NCBI GenBank assembly: GCA_947176425.1
Contig: CAMWQV010000002.1
Coordinates: 1 to 35,954 of the forward strand
Direction: 5' to 3'
Source of the DNA: an uncultured Clostridia bacterium
GTDB lineage: Bacteria > Bacillota > Clostridia > Oscillospirales > Oscillospiraceae
DNA length: 35,954 nucleotides
This document shows, piece by piece, positions 1,834 to 33,438 of the stretch. Each line of letters opens with the position of its first letter. Positions within the stretch are counted from its first letter, which is position 1. The notes beneath the pieces are model-generated. The model saw only the letters and a list, made by a program, of their open reading frames with translations, had not been told where the DNA came from and ran no database searches. A program made the translations under genes and the position numbers.

Positions 1834-4140
1834 GTGCGGGCCGTGCAGCACGACCGCAAAATAACCATATCCATCGGCAACAGCCGCAAGTCCGTGAACT
1901 GGACCCCGGCGACTATGCTGATCTCGGAGTTCTACGCCCGGCTCCAGATCCCTACCAGAGGAACGGAGACGCTGGCGGAATATCTCAACATGAAGAAGGG
2001 CCAGCAGGATGAGCTGAAGGACTGCAACGGCGGCTTTGTGGCCGGCGCGCTGTCCGGCCCCCGCCGCAAGGCCAACGCAGTCACCGGGCGGGATATCATC
2101 ACCTTGGACCTGGATAACATTCCCGCGGGGGGCACGGAGGACGTGCTGCGCCGGGTGGAGGGGCTGGGCTGCGGCTACTGCGTCTATTCCACCCGCAAGC
2201 ACAGCTCAGCGGCCCCAAGGCTTCGAGTTCTCCTGCCACTTGACCGCACGGCGACGGCGGACGAGTACGAGCCCCTGGCTCGTAAGATGGCCGAGTACAT
2301 CGGTCTGGAGCTGGCTGACCCTACCACATTCCAGGTCTCCCGGCTCATGTACTGGGCGTCCTGCTGCGCCGACAGCCAATATGTCTACACGTGGCAGGAT
2401 AAGCCCCTCCTATCTGCCGATGGCCTGCTGGCCCAGTATGCGGACTGGCGGGACTGCCGCTTGTGGCCCCAGGTGCCAGGGGCTGTGAGCCTGCCTAAGC
2501 TGGCAGTGAAGCAGGGCGACCCGGAGGCCAAGAGCGGCGTTGTGGGGGCGTTCTGCCGCACTTATGACGTGTACAGGGCCATGGACGAGCTGATCCCCGG
2601 CGTGTATGAACCGGTGGACAATATGCCGGGGCGGTACACCTACCTTGGCGGGTCTACAACGGGCGGGGCCGTGGCCTACGACGATGGCAAATTCCTCTAC
2701 AGCCACCACGCAACTGACCCATGCAGCGGGCGGCTGGTGAACGCCTTTGACCTGGTGCGGCTGCACAAATTTGGGGAGATGGACGACGAGGCTCAGCCGG
2801 GGACACCTACGGTACGGATGCCCAGCTATCTCGCTATGTGTGAGTATGCTAAGCAAGACGATGGAGTAGCGGAGCTGATGGCTCGTGAACTAGTGACGGC
2901 GGTGGAGGACTTCCAGGGTGTAACCGACGAGACCGCACTGATGGAACTGGGAAAACGGGCAGGCGATAATCTGTCAGAATCCATTGTCACCACTGCGTTG
3001 AGGGCGTTCGATATTCAGGTCCGAAAAAACCTCATTACAGGAAAAGCAGAGATCATCGGAATGCCCCGCAAATACTCCAAGGAGGAGGCTGCGAATACCC
3101 TCCCCGTCTATTTGATGGACAAGCTGAAAGCAGTCGGTGTGAAGGGCGTGACGAAAACATCTGTAGCGGACTATTTGGCAAATATTGTGGACGTGGGGCG
3201 CTATAACCCGGTGCTGGATATGCTGCATAACACCGTGTGGGATGGGGTGTCCAGGTTCCCGGTGCTGCTGAAGATCATCACAGTATCGCCGGATAGTTTC
3301 CACGCGGTGTTGGTTAAAAAGTGGCTCATTCAGTGCGTGGCGTTGGCCCATAACGAGCCAGGGCACTTGCAGGCAGCGGATGGCGTGCTGGTTCTCCAAG
3401 GGGACCAGCGCATCGGTAAAACGCACTTTTTCCGGAGGCTTGCAATTTGGGAAGACTGGATCGCGGAAGGCGTTTCACTGGATATGCGCAACAAAGACGA
3501 TATTATACGGGCGACGGGGGCCTGGATCACCGAGCTAGGGGAGCTGGACAGCACCTTAAAGCGGGAACAGGCCAGCTTAAAGGCATTTATTACACAGCGG
3601 ATGGACTCCATTAGAGCGCCTTATGCGCGGTCAGAGACCAACCGGCCACGGAGGACTTCTTTCTGCGCCACGGTGAATCCGGGGGTGTTCCTCCGGGATG
3701 ATACCGGTGGAAACCGCTGGTGGACTGTGCCAGTTGGAAATATCGACACTCAGGCGCTGATTGAGCTGCCAGATTCCTGGTTCATCCAGCTGTGGGCCGA
3801 GGTCATGATGTGGTGGAAGCAAAATCCGCAGGGATTCCGGCTGACACGTGCGGAGCAGGCGGAGCTTGGCCGGGTAAATCAGGTTTATCAGGAGCCGCTG
3901 GCAGGGGAGGAGGAGCTTCGCTCCCTGTTAGATTTTGAGCTGCCGCTGGAGCACTGGACGCGCTATTCAGCATCAGAAATCAAGAAGCGTTTCTTCTGTG
4001 GAGACCGGACAACGTCGGCACAAATTGGCAGATTATTAATGAAATTGGCCCGTGAAGACAAACGAATAAAATGTATAAATATTCACAATATCAAAAAATA
4101 TATACTGCCTGTCAAAAGCGATTTTAGCACCAAAGGTTAG
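1834..4140 (+). CDS. VapE-like primase/helicase (virulence-associated E family) with N-terminal primase-like region
   Basis: GTG start; Walker-A-like 'LQGDQRIGKTHFFRRL', 'TELGELDSTLKREQASLKAFITQRMDSIRAPYARSETNRPRRTSFCATVNPGVFLRDDTGGNRWWTVPV' characteristic of the VapE family. Confidence 0.85.
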   Translation: MRAVQHDRKITISIGNSRKSVNWTPATMLISEFYARLQIPTRGTETLAEYLNMKKGQQDELKDCNGGFVAGALSGPRRKANAVTGRDIITLDLDNIPAGGTEDVLRRVEGLGCGYCVYSTRKHSSAAPRLRVLLPLDRTATADEYEPLARKMAEYIGLELADPTTFQVSRLMYWASCCADSQYVYTWQDKPLLSADGLLAQYADWRDCRLWPQVPGAVSLPKLAVKQGDPEAKSGVVGAFCRTYDVYRAMDELIPGVYEPVDNMPGRYTYLGGSTTGGAVAYDDGKFLYSHHATDPCSGRLVNAFDLVRLHKFGEMDDEAQPGTPTVRMPSYLAMCEYAKQDDGVAELMARELVTAVEDFQGVTDETALMELGKRAGDNLSESIVTTALRAFDIQVRKNLITGKAEIIGMPRKYSKEEAANTLPVYLMDKLKAVGVKGVTKTSVADYLANIVDVGRYNPVLDMLHNTVWDGVSRFPVLLKIITVSPDSFHAVLVKKWLIQCVALAHNEPGHLQAADGVLVLQGDQRIGKTHFFRRLAIWEDWIAEGVSLDMRNKDDIIRATGAWITELGELDSTLKREQASLKAFITQRMDSIRAPYARSETNRPRRTSFCATVNPGVFLRDDTGGNRWWTVPVGNIDTQALIELPDSWFIQLWAEVMMWWKQNPQGFRLTRAEQAELGRVNQVYQEPLAGEEELRSLLDFELPLEHWTRYSASEIKKRFFCGDRTTSAQIGRLLMKLAREDKRIKCINIHNIKKYILPVKSDFSTKG

Positions 4141-4274
4141 GGTAGGTTAGGGTAAATTCTATATAGAGCTAAAATTAAGAGTTTTAAGGGAAAATAAGAA
4201 AACAGAGAAAACCTATAAAGTCTTTAAAACCTTAATTTACGGGCTATAAGAAAAATACCCTAACCCACCCTAAC
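4135..4274. repeat. Extended nested imperfect inverted repeat with two tandem GGTTAGGGTA units in the left arm
   Basis: 4136-4154 GTTAGGGTAGGTTAGGGTA pairs with 4256-4274 TACCCTAACCCACCCTAAC (18/19). Inner stems 4162-4166/4244-4248, 4172-4179/4231-4238 and 4181-4190/4221-4230 (with GU pairs) keep the same register; AT-rich intergenic DNA. Confidence 0.85.
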
Positions 4275-4304
4275 ACAGAAGCAATTGAAAGGAAGAAATT
4301 TAGC

Positions 4305-4541
4305 ATGAAAGATTTACGAGATTATCTGTGGAAAGGTCTGGATTTGAAGAATTTTGCAGTGGTTGCGATATGGCCTCAAAACAAAAAGGAGGCAGTGATC
4401 TTTATGCGGTATCGAGGGCCGCGGGAAGACCCTTATCCGTGGTGCATTGAGTATCGAGGTAATGGCCACTATTTCCAGACGCCAGGTGATGCAATAGACT
4501 ATTGCGAAAAACGAAAATTTATACAGGAGATACCGGTGTAA
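4305..4541 (+). CDS. Hypothetical phage protein (78 aa)
   Basis: ATG after GAAAGGAAG; co-directional, overlaps the next gene start. Confidence 0.7.
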   Translation: MKDLRDYLWKGLDLKNFAVVAIWPQNKKEAVIFMRYRGPREDPYPWCIEYRGNGHYFQTPGDAIDYCEKRKFIQEIPV

Positions 4542-4828
4542 TGCTTGAAAAAGACGTAGAGCGCTACCTCCGGGAGCAGGTCAAGAAAAAGCTGAGAGGT
4601 ATGGCGCTGAAATTCGTAAGTCCCGGATTGAGTGGGGTGCCGGACAGGGTGGTCCTGCTGCCAGGCGGGCGGGTGGCCTTTGTGGAAACCAAGGCTCCTG
4701 GTAAAAAGCTGAGAGCCTTGCAGGCGCATGTCTGTGGGATGATCGCCGCCATGGGCTTTGAGGTCCGGCAGATCGACACCCGGGCAGGCGTGGACGCGTT
4801 CATCCTGGAGATGGGGGCAGAACAGTGA
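4541..4828 (+). CDS. VRR-NUC domain nuclease
   Basis: 'MALKFVSPGLSGVPDRVVLLPGGRVAFVETKAPGKKLRALQ' is the canonical VRR-NUC core (GxPDxxxxxxxxxxFxExKxxxxxxxxxQ). Confidence 0.9.
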   Translation: MLEKDVERYLREQVKKKLRGMALKFVSPGLSGVPDRVVLLPGGRVAFVETKAPGKKLRALQAHVCGMIAAMGFEVRQIDTRAGVDAFILEMGAEQ

Positions 4829-6216
4829 AGTACATACCCCACGAGTACCAGACCTACTGCATCCAGCGGGTGGTGGAAGATCCCGCAATTGGGCTGTTCC
4901 TTCGTCCTGGCCTGGGGAAGACAGTCATCACCCTGTCCGCCGTCAACATCCTGAAATATTTTCGCTGGCAGGTGTGCAAAGTGCTGGTGGTGGCACCCAA
5001 GAAGGTGGCTGAGGCCACTTGGAGCAAGGAGGCCGCCAAGTGGGACCACCTTCAGCACCTCCGTATTTCCGTGGTGCTGGGGTCCACCACACGGCGGGTC
5101 AGGGCACTCAATACCCCAGCGGACGTGTACATCATCAACCGGGAAAACGTGGAGTGGCTGGTGGACTACTACAGGCAGGCGTGGCCATTTGACATGGTGG
5201 TCCTGGACGAGAGTACCAGCTTCAAGAACCCAAGCAGTAAACGCTTCAAGGCTATGCGGCGGGTACGGCGGTTTGTGAAAAAGATGGTCCTCCTGACCGG
5301 AACACCGTCCTCCAAGGGGTTGATCGACCTGTGGGCGCAGGTGTACCTTCTGGACGGCGGGACCCGCTTGGGTCCAACACTGGGGGCGTACCGGGAGAGA
5401 TATTTTGACCCTGACCAGCGCAGCCGGACCCAGATCTTCAGCTACAAGGCCAAGGACGGTGCGGAGAGTGCGGTGTTGGCAGCCATCGCTGACATCTGCA
5501 TCTCCATGAAGGCGGAGGATTACTTACAGCTGCCGGAGAACATCTCCCACGAGGTCCCCATTATGCTGGACAGCAAAGCCAAAAAGGCGTATGAGAAATT
5601 TGAGCGCGACCTGCTGCTGGAGGTCGATGAAAACATCATCACCGCTGGCACTGCCGGAGTCCTGACCGGGAAACTCCTGCAATTCTGCAATGGAGCAGTG
5701 TATGGCAGCGAAGGCCAGATCGTGCCGGTGCATGACTGCAAGCTGGAGGCTTACATGGAGCTGCTGGAGCGCCTGGACGGAGAACCCGCACTGACGTTCT
5801 ACGGCTACCAGCACGACCGGGACCGCATTCTGGAGCGCTTGGCTAAGACCAAGCTGAGGGTGAGGGTCTACAAGGGCGTGGAGGACGAGGATGCCTGGAA
5901 CAGCGGCGAGGTGAACGTGCTGCTGGTGCATCCGGCGAGCTGCGCCTATGGACTGAACCTCCAGGCTGGTGGCCGTCATGTGGTGTGGTACGGTCTCAAC
6001 TGGTCCTTTGAGCTGAACGATCAGGGGAACTGCCGCCTGTGGCGGCAGGGTTCCCCTTACGACAAGGTTTTTATTCACTATCTGGTGGTGCAGGGCTGCG
6101 TGGATGAGGATGTCATGGCTGCTATTCGGGATCGGGCAGATACCCATGAGGCGGTTATGCGGGCCCTTAAAGCCAGAATACAGAAGGTCAAGGAGGAAAC
6201 CGACAATGATGGTTGA
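4825..6216 (+). CDS. SNF2-family DEAD/DEAH helicase
   Basis: 'GLFLRPGLGKTVITLSAV' (Walker A), 'DMVVLDESTSFKNPSSKRFKAMR' (DExx), 'LLTGTPSSKGLIDLWAQ', 'NWSFELNDQGNCRLWRQGSPYDKVFIHYLV'. Confidence 0.93.
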   Translation: MKYIPHEYQTYCIQRVVEDPAIGLFLRPGLGKTVITLSAVNILKYFRWQVCKVLVVAPKKVAEATWSKEAAKWDHLQHLRISVVLGSTTRRVRALNTPADVYIINRENVEWLVDYYRQAWPFDMVVLDESTSFKNPSSKRFKAMRRVRRFVKKMVLLTGTPSSKGLIDLWAQVYLLDGGTRLGPTLGAYRERYFDPDQRSRTQIFSYKAKDGAESAVLAAIADICISMKAEDYLQLPENISHEVPIMLDSKAKKAYEKFERDLLLEVDENIITAGTAGVLTGKLLQFCNGAVYGSEGQIVPVHDCKLEAYMELLERLDGEPALTFYGYQHDRDRILERLAKTKLRVRVYKGVEDEDAWNSGEVNVLLVHPASCAYGLNLQAGGRHVVWYGLNWSFELNDQGNCRLWRQGSPYDKVFIHYLVVQGCVDEDVMAAIRDRADTHEAVMRALKARIQKVKEETDNDG

Positions 6217-6400
6217 TAGCTATAACATGGTGCACATGAGGGAGCTGGCGGCACCATTGGAGCCGCCAAACCTGCGGACAGGTGCAGGGCATGGGCATTT
6301 CAGAGTATTTGATTGGGAGATGCCCAAAAAGGACGCCTGGGTAAAGAAACGCAAGCTGGTGAAAATGCGCAAGGCTAGCAGAAAGAGGAACAGGACGTAG
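6206..6400 (+). CDS. Hypothetical small basic phage protein
   Basis: ATGATG start at 6206 overlapping the upstream stop, preceded by AGGAGG; longer ORF start at 6104 unlikely. Confidence 0.65.
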   Translation: MMVDSYNMVHMRELAAPLEPPNLRTGAGHGHFRVFDWEMPKKDAWVKKRKLVKMRKASRKRNRT

Positions 6401-27061: not shown

Positions 27062-28066
27062 GTGGGAAAATTTGAGGACGGCTGCTATGGCAGTTTGAAG
27101 GGGATTGCCCTGATCGCCAAGGTATTGGCCGGACGGTGCAAGATGCACTATACCCGTGTTGCGGCCGGAAAGGGGACGATCCCCGATGGCATGACACCAA
27201 AAACGATGGAAGCGCCGCCTGATTATGTTATGGACGCTATGATCAGTGCCATCACAAACCCCGTAGACGGCGAGTGTCAGGTGACGGTACAGCTGAATAG
27301 CGCAAATGTAGAGGCAGGGTTTTATGTGACCAGCCTTCTGCTGTATGCAGAGGACCCGGACGAGGGAGAAGTCCCGTTTACATACCTGGTCCTGGAAAGC
27401 GAGCCGGAATGGATTCGCCCGTCCAGTTCTATCGTGGGCAAACTGGCGACCTTTGACATTATCGCGGCGGTGGGCGATGTGGATACCGTGACCGCGACCA
27501 TCGACCAAAACTCCCTTGCTACAGCGGCAGCAGTGGCACGGATGATCGGGGAGCACAACTCCGACCTGACCGCCCATGCAGATATCCGCTGGGCGCTGGA
27601 GCATCTGGTGGCCCTGGTGGATGTGACCATTCCAGTGGCAGGGTGGATCGAGGAGGCAGCTGGACAGTACAAGCTCCGCCGGGATGTGGATGTGAGCGGC
27701 GTCACAGCTGAGATGATCCCCCGGCTGACCATCCCAGTGGAGCAGGAGGGGGCTGCGGCGGCCTGCGGCCTGAGCCCAGTGGTGGAGACAGTAGAAGGTG
27801 CGATTCGCTTGCGGGGAATGTCCGCACCTAAGGCGGATATTCCCGCCAGCCTGGTGCTGCTGCAACACGGTGTAGAGGTGAGTCAGCTTCCGCAGGGGCC
27901 AGGCGCAGTTGCCGCCATGCCGTTGGCTACCGAACACACGCCCGGCGCTGTAAAACCGGGCCGCGGGCTGCTGGTGGACAAGGACGGCACTCTGTCGGTA
28001 GACATGGCCTCGGACGAGGATTTCAAGCAGATGATGGACGGCCTGGACGGCGGAGAGGGGGCTTAA
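27062..28066 (+). CDS. Tail fibre / tail-collar-type protein
   Basis: GTG start; 'YTRVAAGKGTIPDGMTPKTMEAPPDYVMDAMISAITNPVDGECQVTVQLNSANVEAGFYVTSLLLYAEDPDEGE' typical tail fibre N-terminus. Confidence 0.75.
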   Translation: MGKFEDGCYGSLKGIALIAKVLAGRCKMHYTRVAAGKGTIPDGMTPKTMEAPPDYVMDAMISAITNPVDGECQVTVQLNSANVEAGFYVTSLLLYAEDPDEGEVPFTYLVLESEPEWIRPSSSIVGKLATFDIIAAVGDVDTVTATIDQNSLATAAAVARMIGEHNSDLTAHADIRWALEHLVALVDVTIPVAGWIEEAAGQYKLRRDVDVSGVTAEMIPRLTIPVEQEGAAAACGLSPVVETVEGAIRLRGMSAPKADIPASLVLLQHGVEVSQLPQGPGAVAAMPLATEHTPGAVKPGRGLLVDKDGTLSVDMASDEDFKQMMDGLDGGEGA

Positions 28067-28068
28067 CG

Positions 28069-28482
28069 ATGGCATTAGGCAGCGCAAATGTGCCGGGTGC
28101 GCAGGCTTTGGACCTGGTATCCCGCGTAGTCAGCCTGGAAAAGACACTATCCGGCCAGGAGAAGATCCCCGGCACCTCCGCACCGACGGGTCAGGTGTCC
28201 GCAAAGGTGGGACAGATCTATATCAATGTCATTACCGGCGAAGAGTGGAAGTGTGTCTCCGCAGACGGCAGCGGCACGGTGTGGGAGAAACAAACAAGCT
28301 CCAGCGTGGGGCTGACGGCGCAGCAGGTGGGGGCGAAAGAGTCCGGCTGGAAACCGTATCACTTTGGGTCCAGCGCTCCAAGCGACACCACACAGCTGTG
28401 GGTAGACACGACACCCAACACCGGTGGCTTGAAATATCACAATGGTTCGGACTGGGTCCATGTGCCGGTGTCGTACACATAA
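28069..28482 (+). CDS. Tail-fibre-associated hypothetical protein
   Basis: 'GTSAPTGQVSAKVGQIYINVITGEEWKCVSADGSGTVWEK' fibre-like segment; synteny. Confidence 0.55.
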   Translation: MALGSANVPGAQALDLVSRVVSLEKTLSGQEKIPGTSAPTGQVSAKVGQIYINVITGEEWKCVSADGSGTVWEKQTSSSVGLTAQQVGAKESGWKPYHFGSSAPSDTTQLWVDTTPNTGGLKYHNGSDWVHVPVSYT

Positions 28483-28499: not shown

Positions 28500-29168
28500 A
28501 TGAGTATTGCAAAAGCAGAGCGGTTTACGGCTTTGAAGGCCAAGGTCAAGGCTGAGATGAAGCGGCGCAACCAGTCCGGGTCCGTGGCGGACTACGGCGG
28601 CACGGCGTATGACTACACCGTTCCCCCGGCGGCGGGCAAGACCATCCGGGCCGAGCACCGGGACAAGCTGGTGGGACCGATGCGGGCCATCAACAGTGAC
28701 CTGGTGCCCGCCAGCAAGGGGACCGTCATCAAGGAGGACGAGCTGGCAAACATGGAGACCCGTGTGGCGGTCTGGGGTGCCAGAGACATGACGGACCGGA
28801 GCGCGAGCGACTGTAAGTCCGGCTGCACTGGGACCTGTTACACCGGGTGCGCTATGGGGTGCTTCTCCTGCGGTGGGGCGTGTTCAGACGGCTGCACTGG
28901 CTGCGGGTCCGGGTGCCCTACTGGGTGTTCTGGGTGTGGGTCGGGGTGTCCCAATGGGTGCCAGTCGTGCCCAAGCGGATGCTCGGACGCTTGCTCGGGG
29001 TGTGGGGACGCTTGTTCCATTGGCTGTACTGGATGCATAATGATGTGTGATAATACATGCAAAAATGAATGCGGTAACAGCTGTCAGGAAAACTGCTCTC
29101 CATGCACCAGCGCCTGTTATTCGACGTGCATGGTTTACTGCACATCGCATGGATCAAGCGAACCGTAA
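28500..29168 (+). CDS. Cys-rich CXXX-repeat protein, putative radical SAM substrate (RiPP-type precursor)
   Basis: 222 aa; about 104-aa N-terminal region without cysteine, then 30 Cys in 110 aa with spacing mostly 3-3-2; upstream of a radical SAM/SPASM gene. Confidence 0.8.
   Translation: MSIAKAERFTALKAKVKAEMKRRNQSGSVADYGGTAYDYTVPPAAGKTIRAEHRDKLVGPMRAINSDLVPASKGTVIKEDELANMETRVAVWGARDMTDRSASDCKSGCTGTCYTGCAMGCFSCGGACSDGCTGCGSGCPTGCSGCGSGCPNGCQSCPSGCSDACSGCGDACSIGCTGCIMMCDNTCKNECGNSCQENCSPCTSACYSTCMVYCTSHGSSEP
28812..29141 (+). repeat. Cysteine array CxxxCxxxCxx (11-residue period), 30 Cys codons
   Basis: First Cys codon 28812, last 29139-29141; spacers read 3,3,3,3,2,3,3,2,3,3,2,3,3,2,3,3,2,3,3,2,3,3,3,3,3,2,3,3,3. 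Confidence 0.9.
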
Positions 29169-29178
29169 GGAGTATGTC

Positions 29179-29811
29179 ATGGAAAAAATGAGTGTGATTA
29201 AACAGACTAAGGCCATTATCACCGCCGTAGTTGGGTCAAAGCGGTATGGATATGCTTCCGATTCCTCCGACGGAGACTATTTTTTGCTCACCCATAACAC
29301 GGATATCGCACATCATGACCGAGTATCAAACATCACATATTTTTTGTGGTCCATCCAACACATCAAAGGTCACTGGGGGCATCCTATGCTGATCGACGAC
29401 CTGACAGCGGACTGCCAGGGGCATGAGACCCTATGCTCATTCCTGCGGGATCATAAGCACGATATCGCTTATGCGGCTCCAGCGAATACAGTGCGTTTCG
29501 GGCTAGAGTACATCGGAGCAAAGGAGAGCATTGGGATTGATACCGCTGTAAAACCTGCGTTATGTACCGCCTTTATTCTCGGGCATATGATCCAGGGGGC
29601 AGAGGACCCGGTCCTGTTTACAGAGCAGGAGAAGGCAATACTTACCAGAGTGCGCACCGGTGAGGTGTTGTCGGAGGAACGAGTGGACATCTACCGCCGG
29701 ACACTTACCACAGAGAACCTGGACAAGCTCCGGCGGATGCCGGAAAACCTGACTGTAAAAAACGTGCTGTTTGCGCTGCTTGATGAAATCTGCAAGGAGG
29801 AGACACCATGA
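29179..29811 (+). CDS. Predicted nucleotidyltransferase-fold protein
   Basis: 'VVGSKRYGYASDSSDGDYFLL' fits the GSxxxGxxxxxSDxDxxxx nucleotidyltransferase signature; ATG with AAGGAG 6 nt upstream. Confidence 0.7.
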   Translation: MEKMSVIKQTKAIITAVVGSKRYGYASDSSDGDYFLLTHNTDIAHHDRVSNITYFLWSIQHIKGHWGHPMLIDDLTADCQGHETLCSFLRDHKHDIAYAAPANTVRFGLEYIGAKESIGIDTAVKPALCTAFILGHMIQGAEDPVLFTEQEKAILTRVRTGEVLSEERVDIYRRTLTTENLDKLRRMPENLTVKNVLFALLDEICKEETP

Positions 29812-30338
29812 TCGACCGTATTTTACCCGTGATTCATGACACAGGCGACTATCTCACCGCCCTGTCCTTGTACAAAGCCGACGCTCCACTAACCAAGGAA
29901 GAGGCAGACAAGCTGGTGGCCATCTACCAGAAATATGACGAGGGACTGGAGGATGCCGCTCTGGCTAAGCTGTGTATTGCCCTGGACCTGCTGCCGGGGC
30001 GGACGGAGGAGGACGCCGCCGATTTTTATGGGTTGGAGCTGCCGGTCGCTGATTTGAATGTTTTGTTCCAGGTCAAGGATATCATTTCCGGCCAGCTGGA
30101 ATTGACGGCTGGAAACGCTAACCAGGTGGTAGAGGTCGTAAAGAGCGGCAAGCTGACCCGGCCCGTGGACATCATCCTGGCCCGGACGGCTCTGGACGTT
30201 ATGGCAGGGGCCTGGAACTTCGGCGGGCTGCGGGAACAGACCCAGGCGCTGGCGGAATTTTTGTCCGGCCTGGGCACCGAGGAACTGGACAAGTACAGCA
30301 CCATCGTGGAGGAGGCAAGAATCAAATGCAGGAGCTGA
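29808..30338 (+). CDS. Hypothetical protein of the Cys-rich peptide cassette
   Basis: ATGA overlap with upstream gene and overlap with downstream start; no recognised motif. Confidence 0.7.
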   Translation: MIDRILPVIHDTGDYLTALSLYKADAPLTKEEADKLVAIYQKYDEGLEDAALAKLCIALDLLPGRTEEDAADFYGLELPVADLNVLFQVKDIISGQLELTAGNANQVVEVVKSGKLTRPVDIILARTALDVMAGAWNFGGLREQTQALAEFLSGLGTEELDKYSTIVEEARIKCRS

Positions 30339-30673
30339 AGAAACCCTCAGTCACGGCTTCGCCGTGCCAGCTCCCTTTTCAAGGGAGCCTGAATGAAATC
30401 ACCATTCGCCTGCCGGAGGAGACTGTGAGCTACCTCCAGCGGCTGGACTACGAAATCGGCGGGCTGAACGTCCTCCACACGCACGCGCTCAATGCCGGGG
30501 TGCCATTGGTGAAGCGCTTGGAAATCCGCCGGGAGCACCAGGAGGTCTACGCCGAGTACCAGCTTGCCAAGCAGGAGATGTGGGCGGAGTTCGCGCCGCA
30601 GTTCCCCAGCTTCAAGCGCTGGTGGGTGGACTTCCAAACGGGTCTCCTCCATGTGGAGGTGCCCAATGAATAA
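30326..30673 (+). CDS. Small accessory protein, possibly CXXX-repeat peptide modification system protein-like
   Basis: Small protein ending 'FAPQFPSFKRWWVDFQTGLLHVEV' directly upstream of and overlapping the radical SAM gene; family resemblance is from memory. Confidence 0.5.
   Translation: MQELKKPSVTASPCQLPFQGSLNEITIRLPEETVSYLQRLDYEIGGLNVLHTHALNAGVPLVKRLEIRREHQEVYAEYQLAKQEMWAEFAPQFPSFKRWWVDFQTGLLHVEVPNE
30344..30390. repeat. REP-like palindromic repeat inside CDS
   Basis: CCCTCAGTCACGGCTTCGCCGTGCCAGCTCCCTTTTCAAGGGAGCCT: two perfect hairpins, CACGGC-TTC-GCCGTG (30352-30366) and GCTCCCTT-TTC-AAGGGAGC (30370-30388). Confidence 0.75.
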
Positions 30674-31976
30674 CGACCGCAGACACGCCCGCCAGTTTCA
30701 GAACACTTACCCCTCCTATTACCCTGGGAAAAAGATCAAGACCGTGACCTTCATCGTCACCCACCAGTGCAATTTGAGGTGTTCCTACTGCTACGAGGGG
30801 CACAAATCGGACAAGAAAATGTCCCTGGAGACGGCGAAGCGGTGTGTGGACCTGCTCTTTGCCGAGGATGCCAAAAATTCCGAGCTGGTCAATGACACCG
30901 AGGCCAACGGGCTGATCATTGAGTTCATCGGCGGGGAGCCCTTCTTGGAGATCGACTTGATCGACCAGACCATGGAGTATTTCCTGACTCAGGCCATTGA
31001 GCTGAACCACCGCTGGAAAACCCGGTACATGATCAACATTTCCACCAACGGCACCTTGGGGGACGACCCCCGTGTCCAGCAGTTTATGCGCAAATACGCG
31101 GGCCGCCTGTCCATCGGCGTGACCATCGACGGCGACAAGGCCGCCCACGACGCCTGCCGGGTGGACTGTAATGGCTGCGGGTCCTACGACAAGGCGATCA
31201 AGATGTTCCGTGAAGTGGCAGGGCCGGACGGCAAGCGGACCACCAAGTACACCATCGCTCCCGGCAATATCGGCCTGTTCGCCTCCTCGGTGCGGCACCT
31301 GGTGCTGGAGGAGGGGGTGGACACCCTCAACTGCAATTGCGTGTACGAGGAGGGCTGGACACCGGAGCACGCCAGGGAACTGTACAGGCAGCTCAAAGAG
31401 GTGTCCGATATGGTCCAGGAGTCCGGGACCGATACCTACATCTCCATTTTGGACTGGGAGGCCGGGAACCACCTGCCGGACACCGAGACCCAGAACTGGT
31501 GCGGCGGGGATGGGCGGATGCTGGCCTTTGACGTGGACGGGACGGTGCTGCCGTGTATGCGCTACTCACCCATCTCCATCGCCAACCAGCCCGTCTACCG
31601 CATTGGCGACGTGGACTGCGGGATCGGCACCAGGGAGGACGACGCCCAGCGGCTGGCGGATTTGCGGTCCATCACCCGGCAGTCTCAGAGTGAGCAGCGG
31701 TGTTTGGACTGTCCCATCAATCAGGGCTGTGCCTGGTGTACCGCTTACAACTACGAGCGTACCGGGACGCCCAACCAGCGGGTCACTTACATCTGCGATA
31801 TGCACAAGGCCAGGGTGCTGGCCCAGTGCTATCATCACAATAAGCTCCACCTGCTCCACCGGTCGCATGAACCCAAGAAAATCAACATCCCCATGGAGTG
31901 GGCGCTGGAAATTATCTCTTCCGAGGAGTGGGAGATGCTGCTGGAGCTGGAGCGGCAGTGTTTTGATGAGGCGTAG
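30666..31976 (+). CDS. Radical SAM/SPASM peptide maturase (CXXX-repeat target type)
   Basis: CxxxCxxC motif 'THQCNLRCSYCYEGH'; 'EFIGGEPFLEIDLI' (GGEP); SPASM cysteines 'WCGGDGRMLAFDVDGTVLPCMRYSP...RCLDCPINQGCAWCTAYNYERTGTPNQRVTYICDMH'. Confidence 0.92.
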   Translation: MNNDRRHARQFQNTYPSYYPGKKIKTVTFIVTHQCNLRCSYCYEGHKSDKKMSLETAKRCVDLLFAEDAKNSELVNDTEANGLIIEFIGGEPFLEIDLIDQTMEYFLTQAIELNHRWKTRYMINISTNGTLGDDPRVQQFMRKYAGRLSIGVTIDGDKAAHDACRVDCNGCGSYDKAIKMFREVAGPDGKRTTKYTIAPGNIGLFASSVRHLVLEEGVDTLNCNCVYEEGWTPEHARELYRQLKEVSDMVQESGTDTYISILDWEAGNHLPDTETQNWCGGDGRMLAFDVDGTVLPCMRYSPISIANQPVYRIGDVDCGIGTREDDAQRLADLRSITRQSQSEQRCLDCPINQGCAWCTAYNYERTGTPNQRVTYICDMHKARVLAQCYHHNKLHLLHRSHEPKKINIPMEWALEIISSEEWEMLLELERQCFDEA

Positions 31977-32020
31977 ACGGGATATGCCCGTGCGCAAATA
32001 AATTTTTGGAGGAATAGACC

Positions 32021-32620
32021 ATGGCTAACAATGAAAACAACAAAAAAGTCCCGACCCTGGCGCAGATGATCGAGGCGCACAAGAAGAGCAATGCCAGCGT
32101 CAAAGCGTTGGACAAGAAGGTCGAGGATCTGAAAGCCGCCGCAATGACGGAGGAGCGGGTGACCGCCGCCATCAACGCCAAGGTTTCCAGTACTTACAAG
32201 GCTGGCGGCAGCGTGGCTTTCGCGGATCTGCCCGAGCTGAGCGAGGCAAACATGGGCCTGGTGGTTAACGTGACCGACAAGTTCACCACCACCGATGATT
32301 TTGTGGAGGGTGCGGGGAATAAACACTCCGCGGGTACCAACGTGGCCGTGGTTCTGGCGGGTGAGGTTTACAAGTACGACGTGATGTCCGGCTTTGTGGA
32401 TCTGTCCGGCCTGGTGGAGAAGGAGGACGGCAAGGGCCTGTCCGAGGAGAACTTCACCGCCGCTGATAAGGCCAAGCTGGACGGTATTGAGTTCGCCACC
32501 GATGAGGAGGTGGCCGCCGCGCTGGCGGAGATTTACGGTAAGGACGAGACCGAAGATGAGGATGGCGGCAAGATCAAAGTCGATGAGACCGAGACCGAGA
32601 GCGGGAGAGGCGACCACTAA
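32021..32620 (+). CDS. Tail-fibre-like structural protein
   Basis: 'KAGGSVAFADLPELSEANMGLVVNVTDKFTTTDDFVEGAGNKHSAGTNVAVV' recurrent in phage fibre/structural proteins. Confidence 0.65.
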   Translation: MANNENNKKVPTLAQMIEAHKKSNASVKALDKKVEDLKAAAMTEERVTAAINAKVSSTYKAGGSVAFADLPELSEANMGLVVNVTDKFTTTDDFVEGAGNKHSAGTNVAVVLAGEVYKYDVMSGFVDLSGLVEKEDGKGLSEENFTAADKAKLDGIEFATDEEVAAALAEIYGKDETEDEDGGKIKVDETETESGRGDH

Positions 32621-32671: not shown

Positions 32672-32848
32672 ATGAGCAAAAAAGCGGTGACCGTGGAGCA
32701 GCTGCTGGAGAGCGCGCGGCAGGGCGAGGCGCTGACTATGCAGATGGCGGAAGCGGCGGCGGCAGACTTGGCGCAGCGCCCGAAGAGGGATGAGGTCAAT
32801 GATGCCATTAACGCCGCCATCACCGGCGCATTGGGGAGGGCTTACTGA
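32672..32848 (+). CDS. Small hypothetical phage protein
   Basis: ATG with upstream GAGGTG; stop overlaps next ATG (TGATG). Confidence 0.6.
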   Translation: MSKKAVTVEQLLESARQGEALTMQMAEAAAADLAQRPKRDEVNDAINAAITGALGRAY

Positions 32849-33438
32849 TGGGACCGTCAATACCGCTTGAGCCGCTGCTCCAGGATATCGCCGACGCCAT
32901 CCGCGCCAAGACCGGCACCGATGATCCCATCTACCCAGAGGACTACGCCGTCAAAATCATGACCATCGAGAGCGGGGACGGCACCATCACCATGGAGTCC
33001 CTGGAGATCGCCGCCCCGCCGGACAAGGTGGATTACTACTACAACGGCCTGTGGCATGAGTTTCTGGACCCCACGGGGATGACCTTTGTGCTCCATGTGG
33101 ACCTGCTGGGCATGAAGCTGGCCCTGCCCATACGGCCCGACTATGAGGCCATTGACCAGGACCGCCACCGGATGCTTTACACCGTCCGCCCAATGGCCCC
33201 GGAGGGTATGTCCAACTGGCCGGAGGTGACGCTGGAGCTGTCCCCGGACCGGGAGGTCCAGGACGGCGACACCCGGCTCACCGCCGAGGTGCGCTGGCGC
33301 GGGCAGAAGGTCCGGGCTGTCCAGCCGGTCAACGTGTTCTACGCCTCGCCCCACTGGTACGACATCGAGAAGCAGGACCGGACCTGGGCGGAGTTTGAGA
33401 ACACCTTTGTGACCTGGGACGGCGTTGCCACCGCGTGA
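32848..33438 (+). CDS. Phage structural (tail-associated) hypothetical protein
   Basis: N-terminal 'PLLQDIADAIRAKTGTDDPIYPEDYAVKI' is a common phage tail/fibre-protein opening. Confidence 0.6.
   Translation: MGPSIPLEPLLQDIADAIRAKTGTDDPIYPEDYAVKIMTIESGDGTITMESLEIAAPPDKVDYYYNGLWHEFLDPTGMTFVLHVDLLGMKLALPIRPDYEAIDQDRHRMLYTVRPMAPEGMSNWPEVTLELSPDREVQDGDTRLTAEVRWRGQKVRAVQPVNVFYASPHWYDIEKQDRTWAEFENTFVTWDGVATA

Follow-up and report, generated by a model that had tools for sequence, protein, structure and literature searches.

A CXXX-repeat/radical SAM cassette in the tail module of a Clostridia prophage: a candidate system for modified phage tail proteins

Main finding

The stretch of DNA analysed here (35,954 nucleotides of contig CAMWQV010000002.1 from an uncultured Clostridia bacterium; hereafter the window) holds a prophage with a contractile tail, whose structural genes run in order along the + strand. 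In the tail module we found one operon that contains a Cys-rich open reading frame (ORF), a radical S-adenosylmethionine (SAM)/SPASM maturase of family TIGR04115 and a partner protein of about 100 amino acids. The cassette is a variant of the known CXXX-repeat modification system in a new setting, the phage tail module. Our preferred interpretation, to which we assign a probability of roughly 0.55, is that of a phage version of this system, in which a late, tail-associated protein is anchored by a helical domain and carries a thioether-stapled tip. The main genes and domains are as follows.

28500..29168, + strand: Cys-rich protein (putative substrate), 222 amino acids, 30 Cys
28500..28811, + strand: conserved helical domain of the substrate (about 104 amino acids), putative anchor (alignments; three helices predicted by AlphaFold2)
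28812..29168, + strand: Cys-rich part of the substrate, with 30 Cys spaced by 4 (22 times) or 3 (7 times)
30326..30673, + strand: cassette partner of about 100 amino acids, putative distant relative of TIGR04116 (hidden Markov model (HMM) comparisons)
30666..31976, + strand: radical SAM/SPASM peptide maturase, TIGR04115 rSAM_Cxxx_rpt (383.4 bits)

Substrate, maturase and partner

The adjacent Cys-repeat target that is expected of a CXXX-repeat modification system is present in the window as the product of 28500-29168, which at 13.5% has the highest Cys content among the window ORFs that were compared. Its first Cys is residue 105, and the region that follows is Gly/Ser-rich and of the CxxxC/CxxC type, with a spacing of 3 or 4 in 29 of the 29 Cys-Cys intervals (in 20,000 shuffles of the region the fraction of such spacings had a mean of 0.25 and a maximum of 0.62).

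The maturase scores above the curated TIGR04115 cut-off (383.4 versus 350 bits) and has 5wgg as its nearest solved structure (E=9e-19). Invariant in seven maturase homologues are C36, C40, C43, C280, C298, C347, C350, C356, C359 and C378, which make up the radical SAM CxxxCxxC motif and the auxiliary SPASM-type cysteines. Since the enzyme belongs to the SPASM family of thioether-forming enzymes, the substrate is probably cross-linked. We place its start at the ATG at 30666, overlapping the end of the partner gene; the listed ORF start at 30564 is too early. Assignment to the PapB ranthipeptide type (NF047865) was rejected, as the score of 170.9 bits is under the cut-off of 340 bits. The partner has no NCBIfam match, an HMM made solely from phage partners matches 56 cellular CXXX loci, and TIGR04116 (CXXX repeat modification system protein) matches a member of the cellular partners.

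Conservation in viruses and prophages

Four viral relatives of the maturase were found with a single-sequence query and 184 with a seven-sequence alignment, 80 of which were kept. A Cys-repeat ORF lies beside the maturase, either 5' or 3' of it, in 79 of the 86 viral and related loci examined (numbered L001 onwards where a locus is named), and the partner was found by HMM at 79 loci, that is, at nearly all. Most of the Cys-repeat ORFs beside viral maturases share the N-terminal helical domain of the window substrate (N-domain), which occurs together with the maturase in 63 distinct viral or prophage loci. Conversely, a search of viral contigs with the N-domain gave the same context in all 24 loci; none of these had a free-standing N-domain, and the N-domain ORFs recovered by HMM are all Cys-rich except for a truncated tandem copy in L137. 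The retention of substrate and maturase together while the gene order varies points to a functional pairing rather than a chance neighbourhood. The cassette is also present in genomes of cultured lysogens, for example Neglectibacter timonensis (L154) and Faecalibacterium sp. I4-1-79 (L163). Among 391 genomes of the class to which the host belongs, the N-domain was found in a single one, that of the window itself, and is thus essentially phage-borne.

This pairing bears on the idea that the Cys-rich region binds Fe-S clusters or other metals while the maturase has another substrate. The CxxC and CxxxC spacings do look like those of metal ligands, but Cys-rich region and CXXX-repeat maturase are paired repeatedly, also in cellular homologues with Tat-exported Cys-rich peptides, and we regard metal binding as the least probable of the explanations considered.

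Several loci depart from the window layout. The substrate is split into an N-domain ORF with few Cys and a long Cys-rich ORF in L052 (4365-5348), L059 (4328-5665) and L158 (851-1957). One maturase stands beside six Cys-rich ORFs in L093 and beside four in L108, as if a substrate family shared one enzyme. Tandem TIGR04115-related maturases occur within one cassette in L040 (3257-6111; the second scores 244 bits, below the cut-off) and L057 (4175-7281), and the maturase frame is interrupted by stops under the standard code in L082, L116 and L128, which may belong to phages that have reassigned a stop codon. Not retained were the radical SAM protein of Campylobacter CP21 (best match 23% identical, mixed neighbours, no Cys-rich gene annotated alongside) and the contigs MT836452 and MT837768 (chromosomal genes, no Cys-repeat ORF next to the radical SAM gene).

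Location in the tail module

The flanking genes of the window cassette are these.

27062..28066, + strand: tail fibre protein, upstream neighbour (phrog_7037, tail fiber, E=9e-38)
28069..28482, + strand: short fibre-associated protein (phrog_18983, tail fiber, weak, E=7e-4)
32021..32620, + strand: downstream fibre-like protein (phrog_38190, unknown function, E=1.5e-27; same family 3' of the cassette in L001)
32848..33438, + strand: further fibre-like protein (IADAIRAKTG motif, shared with a fibre-region gene of L040 by sequence comparison; no PHROG match)

An earlier note on this stretch had proposed, from the sequence alone, that the modified Cys-rich protein is a virion or tail-tip component. 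Its observation that the Cys-rich gene directly follows a fibre-associated gene holds: the gap is 17 nt, the product of 28069-28482 has a weak tail-fibre match and a clear fibre gene precedes it. The C-terminal end of that product is a ...LWVDTTPNTGGLKYHNGSDWVHVPVSYT module, an ending shared by the genes that precede the cassettes of L001 and L002. The second flanking gene, 32021-32620, does start 44 nt after the maturase as described, but it is 'fibre-like' by resemblance, its sole PHROG match being to the family of unknown function.

Across the loci, the assignable upstream neighbours are mainly tail-fibre, collar or baseplate genes, with tail fibre, tail collar, baseplate, collagen-like minor tail, Mu gp48 and P2 gpI among the families. 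The earlier note had named cassettes at clearly non-tail loci as the finding that would contradict it; among 20 upstream genes sampled from divergent loci, nine match tail families and none matches solely a non-virion family. A regular-expression search for ferredoxin- or NifU-like neighbours returned none, yet the Pfam tallies give two of each.

The same location speaks to a host-directed role inside the infected or lysogenised cell, such as metal or thiol buffering, superinfection exclusion or anti-defence. Cys-rich proteins can bind metals and the context is that of a prophage, in line with such a role; the gene, however, sits among late structural genes and not in early or moron regions, and the dedicated maturase and partner are conserved, which makes a host-directed protein quite unlikely.

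A related arrangement was found in the jumbo phages SPN3US (a well-studied Salmonella phage), ChrisDB, CR5 and phiEaH2. In every one of the four, a pair of CXXX ORFs (127-155 amino acids) lies directly 3' of a putative virion structural gene and 5' of two radical SAM genes. Cys-rich CXXX ORFs that are unannotated, mis-framed or unnamed, and that neighbour baseplate/fibre genes and a pair of radical SAM genes, were noted in cultured jumbo phages at the following positions.

L142 (SPN3US, NC_027402): 3097-3489, 3500-3904 and 3920-4126
L145: 4124-4912
L146: 4154-4959
L147: 4126-4919

In SPN3US both CXXX ORFs are absent from the annotation, with SPN3US_0166 annotated over the second in another frame, so that their products would escape searches against annotated proteins. 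They adjoin the region of SPN3US_0168-0170, the products of which were found in virions and assigned as baseplate/tail-fibre candidates (PMC5694885) and were placed in the tail (PMC10052503). The N-terminal part of the jumbo substrates is unlike that of the window substrate, and the jumbo maturases are 25-28% identical to the window's and score 112.9-125.6 bits, below the TIGR04115 cut-off, indicating a related but distinct lineage.

Export and the N-domain

Searches of Pfam, NCBIfam and PHROGs gave no transporter or peptidase match for any cassette gene, as the earlier note had read from the ORFs, and the comparison with cellular systems makes this absence meaningful. In 47 of 80 loci from bacterial genomes the Cys-rich peptide has a signal of the twin-arginine translocation (Tat) type, and at 33 of those 47 the retrieved region also contains tatC, whereas neither the signal nor tatC was found at 13 loci with the phage N-domain. 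The window cassette likewise has no twin-arginine signal and no tat genes. The phage substrates lack a hydrophobic N-terminal stretch (median N-terminal hydropathy 0.45 versus 1.91 in the cellular ones). Cellular versions thus have a dedicated exporter and phage versions do not; in the latter, the phage domain replaces the export signal. A cellular-type cassette was also seen in L006 (MT837480, Bacteroides-like), which is entered as a phage contig; there, 2222-6270 encodes TIGR04115, TIGR04119 and TIGR04116 proteins and a Cys peptide with a Tat signal, and TatA- and TatC-like genes come next.

The N-domain is not fixed in position. In L087, L089 and L092 it is C-terminal, after the Cys region. 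The leader of a ribosomally synthesised and post-translationally modified peptide (RiPP) is normally N-terminal, and the view of the N-domain as a simple RiPP leader is weakened accordingly; a docking module appears to be the better reading.

Variation of the Cys region

For three closely related pairs, identity outside the Cys columns is 30-34% in the Cys region, with 82-87% identity for the maturase and 56-79% for the N-domain, so in these the Cys region changes faster. L121 shares more than 4 kb with L122 and L149 at 99.7% identity, and the match breaks off inside the Cys region (5638 in L121, 4493 in L149). Different nucleotidyltransferase-like genes follow the breakpoint in L121 and L149, and homology returns further on. 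The break resembles an exchange of a distal tip module, possibly of the tip plus an accessory gene.

The position of this break is relevant to a further alternative, a tail-fibre assembly factor that is modified but stays outside the finished virion. Genes right after fibre genes often encode fibre chaperones, and the cassette has such a position. A chaperone, however, has no need of stapled repeats that vary in length, and the swap breakpoint falls inside the Cys region; we consider an assembly factor very unlikely.

Proposed mechanism and its main rival

In the mechanism that we propose, the maturase, aided by the partner, would install several Cys-derived cross-links, probably thioethers, in the cytoplasm, by which the Gly/Ser-rich CxxxC/CxxC region would be stapled into a rigid, protease-resistant element. 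The helical domain would dock the product on the tail fibre or baseplate whose gene lies immediately 5' of its own. A product docked in this way would require no exporter, since lysis would release it together with the virion. The Cys-rich end may then be an exposed, variable tip that binds a receptor or another surface, acting like the gp38 adhesin of S16 and T-even phages, which serves here as a working analogy.

Several observations weigh against this mechanism. The three-helix prediction for the N-domain (AlphaFold2) is of moderate confidence, with a mean predicted local distance difference test score (pLDDT) of 72; the domain has no significant fold match and no sequence match in the PDB, and a BFVD structure search with it returned its own family only (metagenomic phage proteins, among them one labelled as a TNFR-Cys protein). 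The Cys region is disordered in the full-length structure prediction. In the pairs L088/L095, L040/L057 and L059/L060 any excess change in the Cys region is slight or absent, and the tip swap was seen only once. The other 11 of the 20 sampled upstream genes have no match, a match of unknown function or, in L081, a match to a minor head protein. Downstream, the neighbours are often endolysin or holin genes, and in large phages some of them are unrelated genes. The proposal of a virion or tail-tip component is upheld in part: many unrelated phages, and jumbo phages as well, have the cassette in the tail module, but the downstream side is often a lysis module.

The lysis genes 3' of the cassette fit the main rival, namely a RiPP-like toxin or signal that is freed by holin and endolysin, as with colicins, with the Cys-rich region as the core modified by the maturase and the N-domain as leader or carrier. 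The lack of a transporter and the membership of the maturase in a family that modifies peptides agree with it as well. Nevertheless, no immunity or protease gene was recognised, the N-domain is C-terminal in the three loci given above, and most Cys regions (up to 378 amino acids) far exceed the usual length of a RiPP core. Cassettes of this kind are also found in virulent jumbo phages beside baseplate/fibre genes, where a toxin would bring little benefit. A lysis-released product thus seems unlikely, although it is the strongest of the alternatives to a stapled tail tip.

We tentatively extend the interpretation to a widespread class of tailed phages, whose tail receptor-binding or tip proteins might be stapled by a dedicated radical SAM enzyme and could have been overlooked since annotation misses or mis-frames Cys-repeat ORFs. 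To our knowledge, no virion protein is known to be matured by a radical SAM peptide enzyme, and our literature searches, whose coverage did not include a key paper of 2011, gave no description of phage CXXX systems. If the interpretation is true, phages of gut and rumen bacteria make covalently hardened tail parts by RiPP chemistry, and the purpose of a CXXX system becomes testable in SPN3US, a cultured and genetically tractable phage for which decisive spectra may already exist.

Accessory genes

The earlier note does not mention the partner gene (30326-30673) and the two genes that precede it.

29179..29811, + strand: accessory nucleotidyltransferase-like protein, motif GSKRYGYASDSSDGDY (phrog_388, E=0.0014; motif scan)
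29808..30338, + strand: 176-amino-acid protein of no known family (HMM matches in L001, L002 and L003)

The former has no significant Pfam match, and its weak nucleotidyltransferase label comes from the motif and one weak PHROG match. Such an ORF (GS...G...SDxD) lies directly 3' of the substrate at four loci (29179-29811 in the window, 5695-6420 in L121, 4555-5730 in L149 and 7905-8570 in L064), and might provide a second modification or a tip-specific factor. The latter has no significant match in Pfam or NCBIfam.

Comparison with known systems

The PapB-type ranthipeptide system (NF047865) has a related radical SAM/SPASM enzyme, and PapB makes Cys-X3-Asp/Glu thioethers (PMC9413430), a spacing that recalls CXXX. 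The window system differs in the score of its maturase (171 bits against a cut-off of 340) and in a substrate without the Cys-X3-Asp pattern.

The gp38 adhesin of S16 has a three-helix attachment domain and a repetitive, Gly-rich variable tip (PMC6851490). Like the window substrate, gp38 of S16 and other T-even phages is encoded directly after a fibre gene and combines a three-helix domain (a predicted one in the window substrate) with a repetitive, Gly-rich and variable distal part; unlike the proposed product, it is held by polyglycine-II packing and not by the action of an enzyme. The window substrate has no sequence or fold match to it (N-domain against the PDB), and the likeness is one of resemblance only.

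The SPN3US-type pair (SPN3US_0163/0164) shares the association of CXXX ORFs and radical SAM genes with baseplate/fibre genes, and differs in the N-terminal module of the substrate and in maturases below the TIGR04115 cut-off.

With the CXXX-repeat system itself (TIGR04115, TIGR04116 and TIGR04119) the window cassette shares a maturase above the TIGR04115 cut-off and a Cys-repeat substrate, and its partner appears to be a distant relative of TIGR04116. It differs in its place in a tail module, in having no tatC, and in that none of its genes matches the TIGR04119 CXXX repeat peptide maturase, which is present in the cellular contig L006. Where Bacteroidales-type CXXX peptides carry a Tat signal, the window substrate has a phage-specific helical domain instead.

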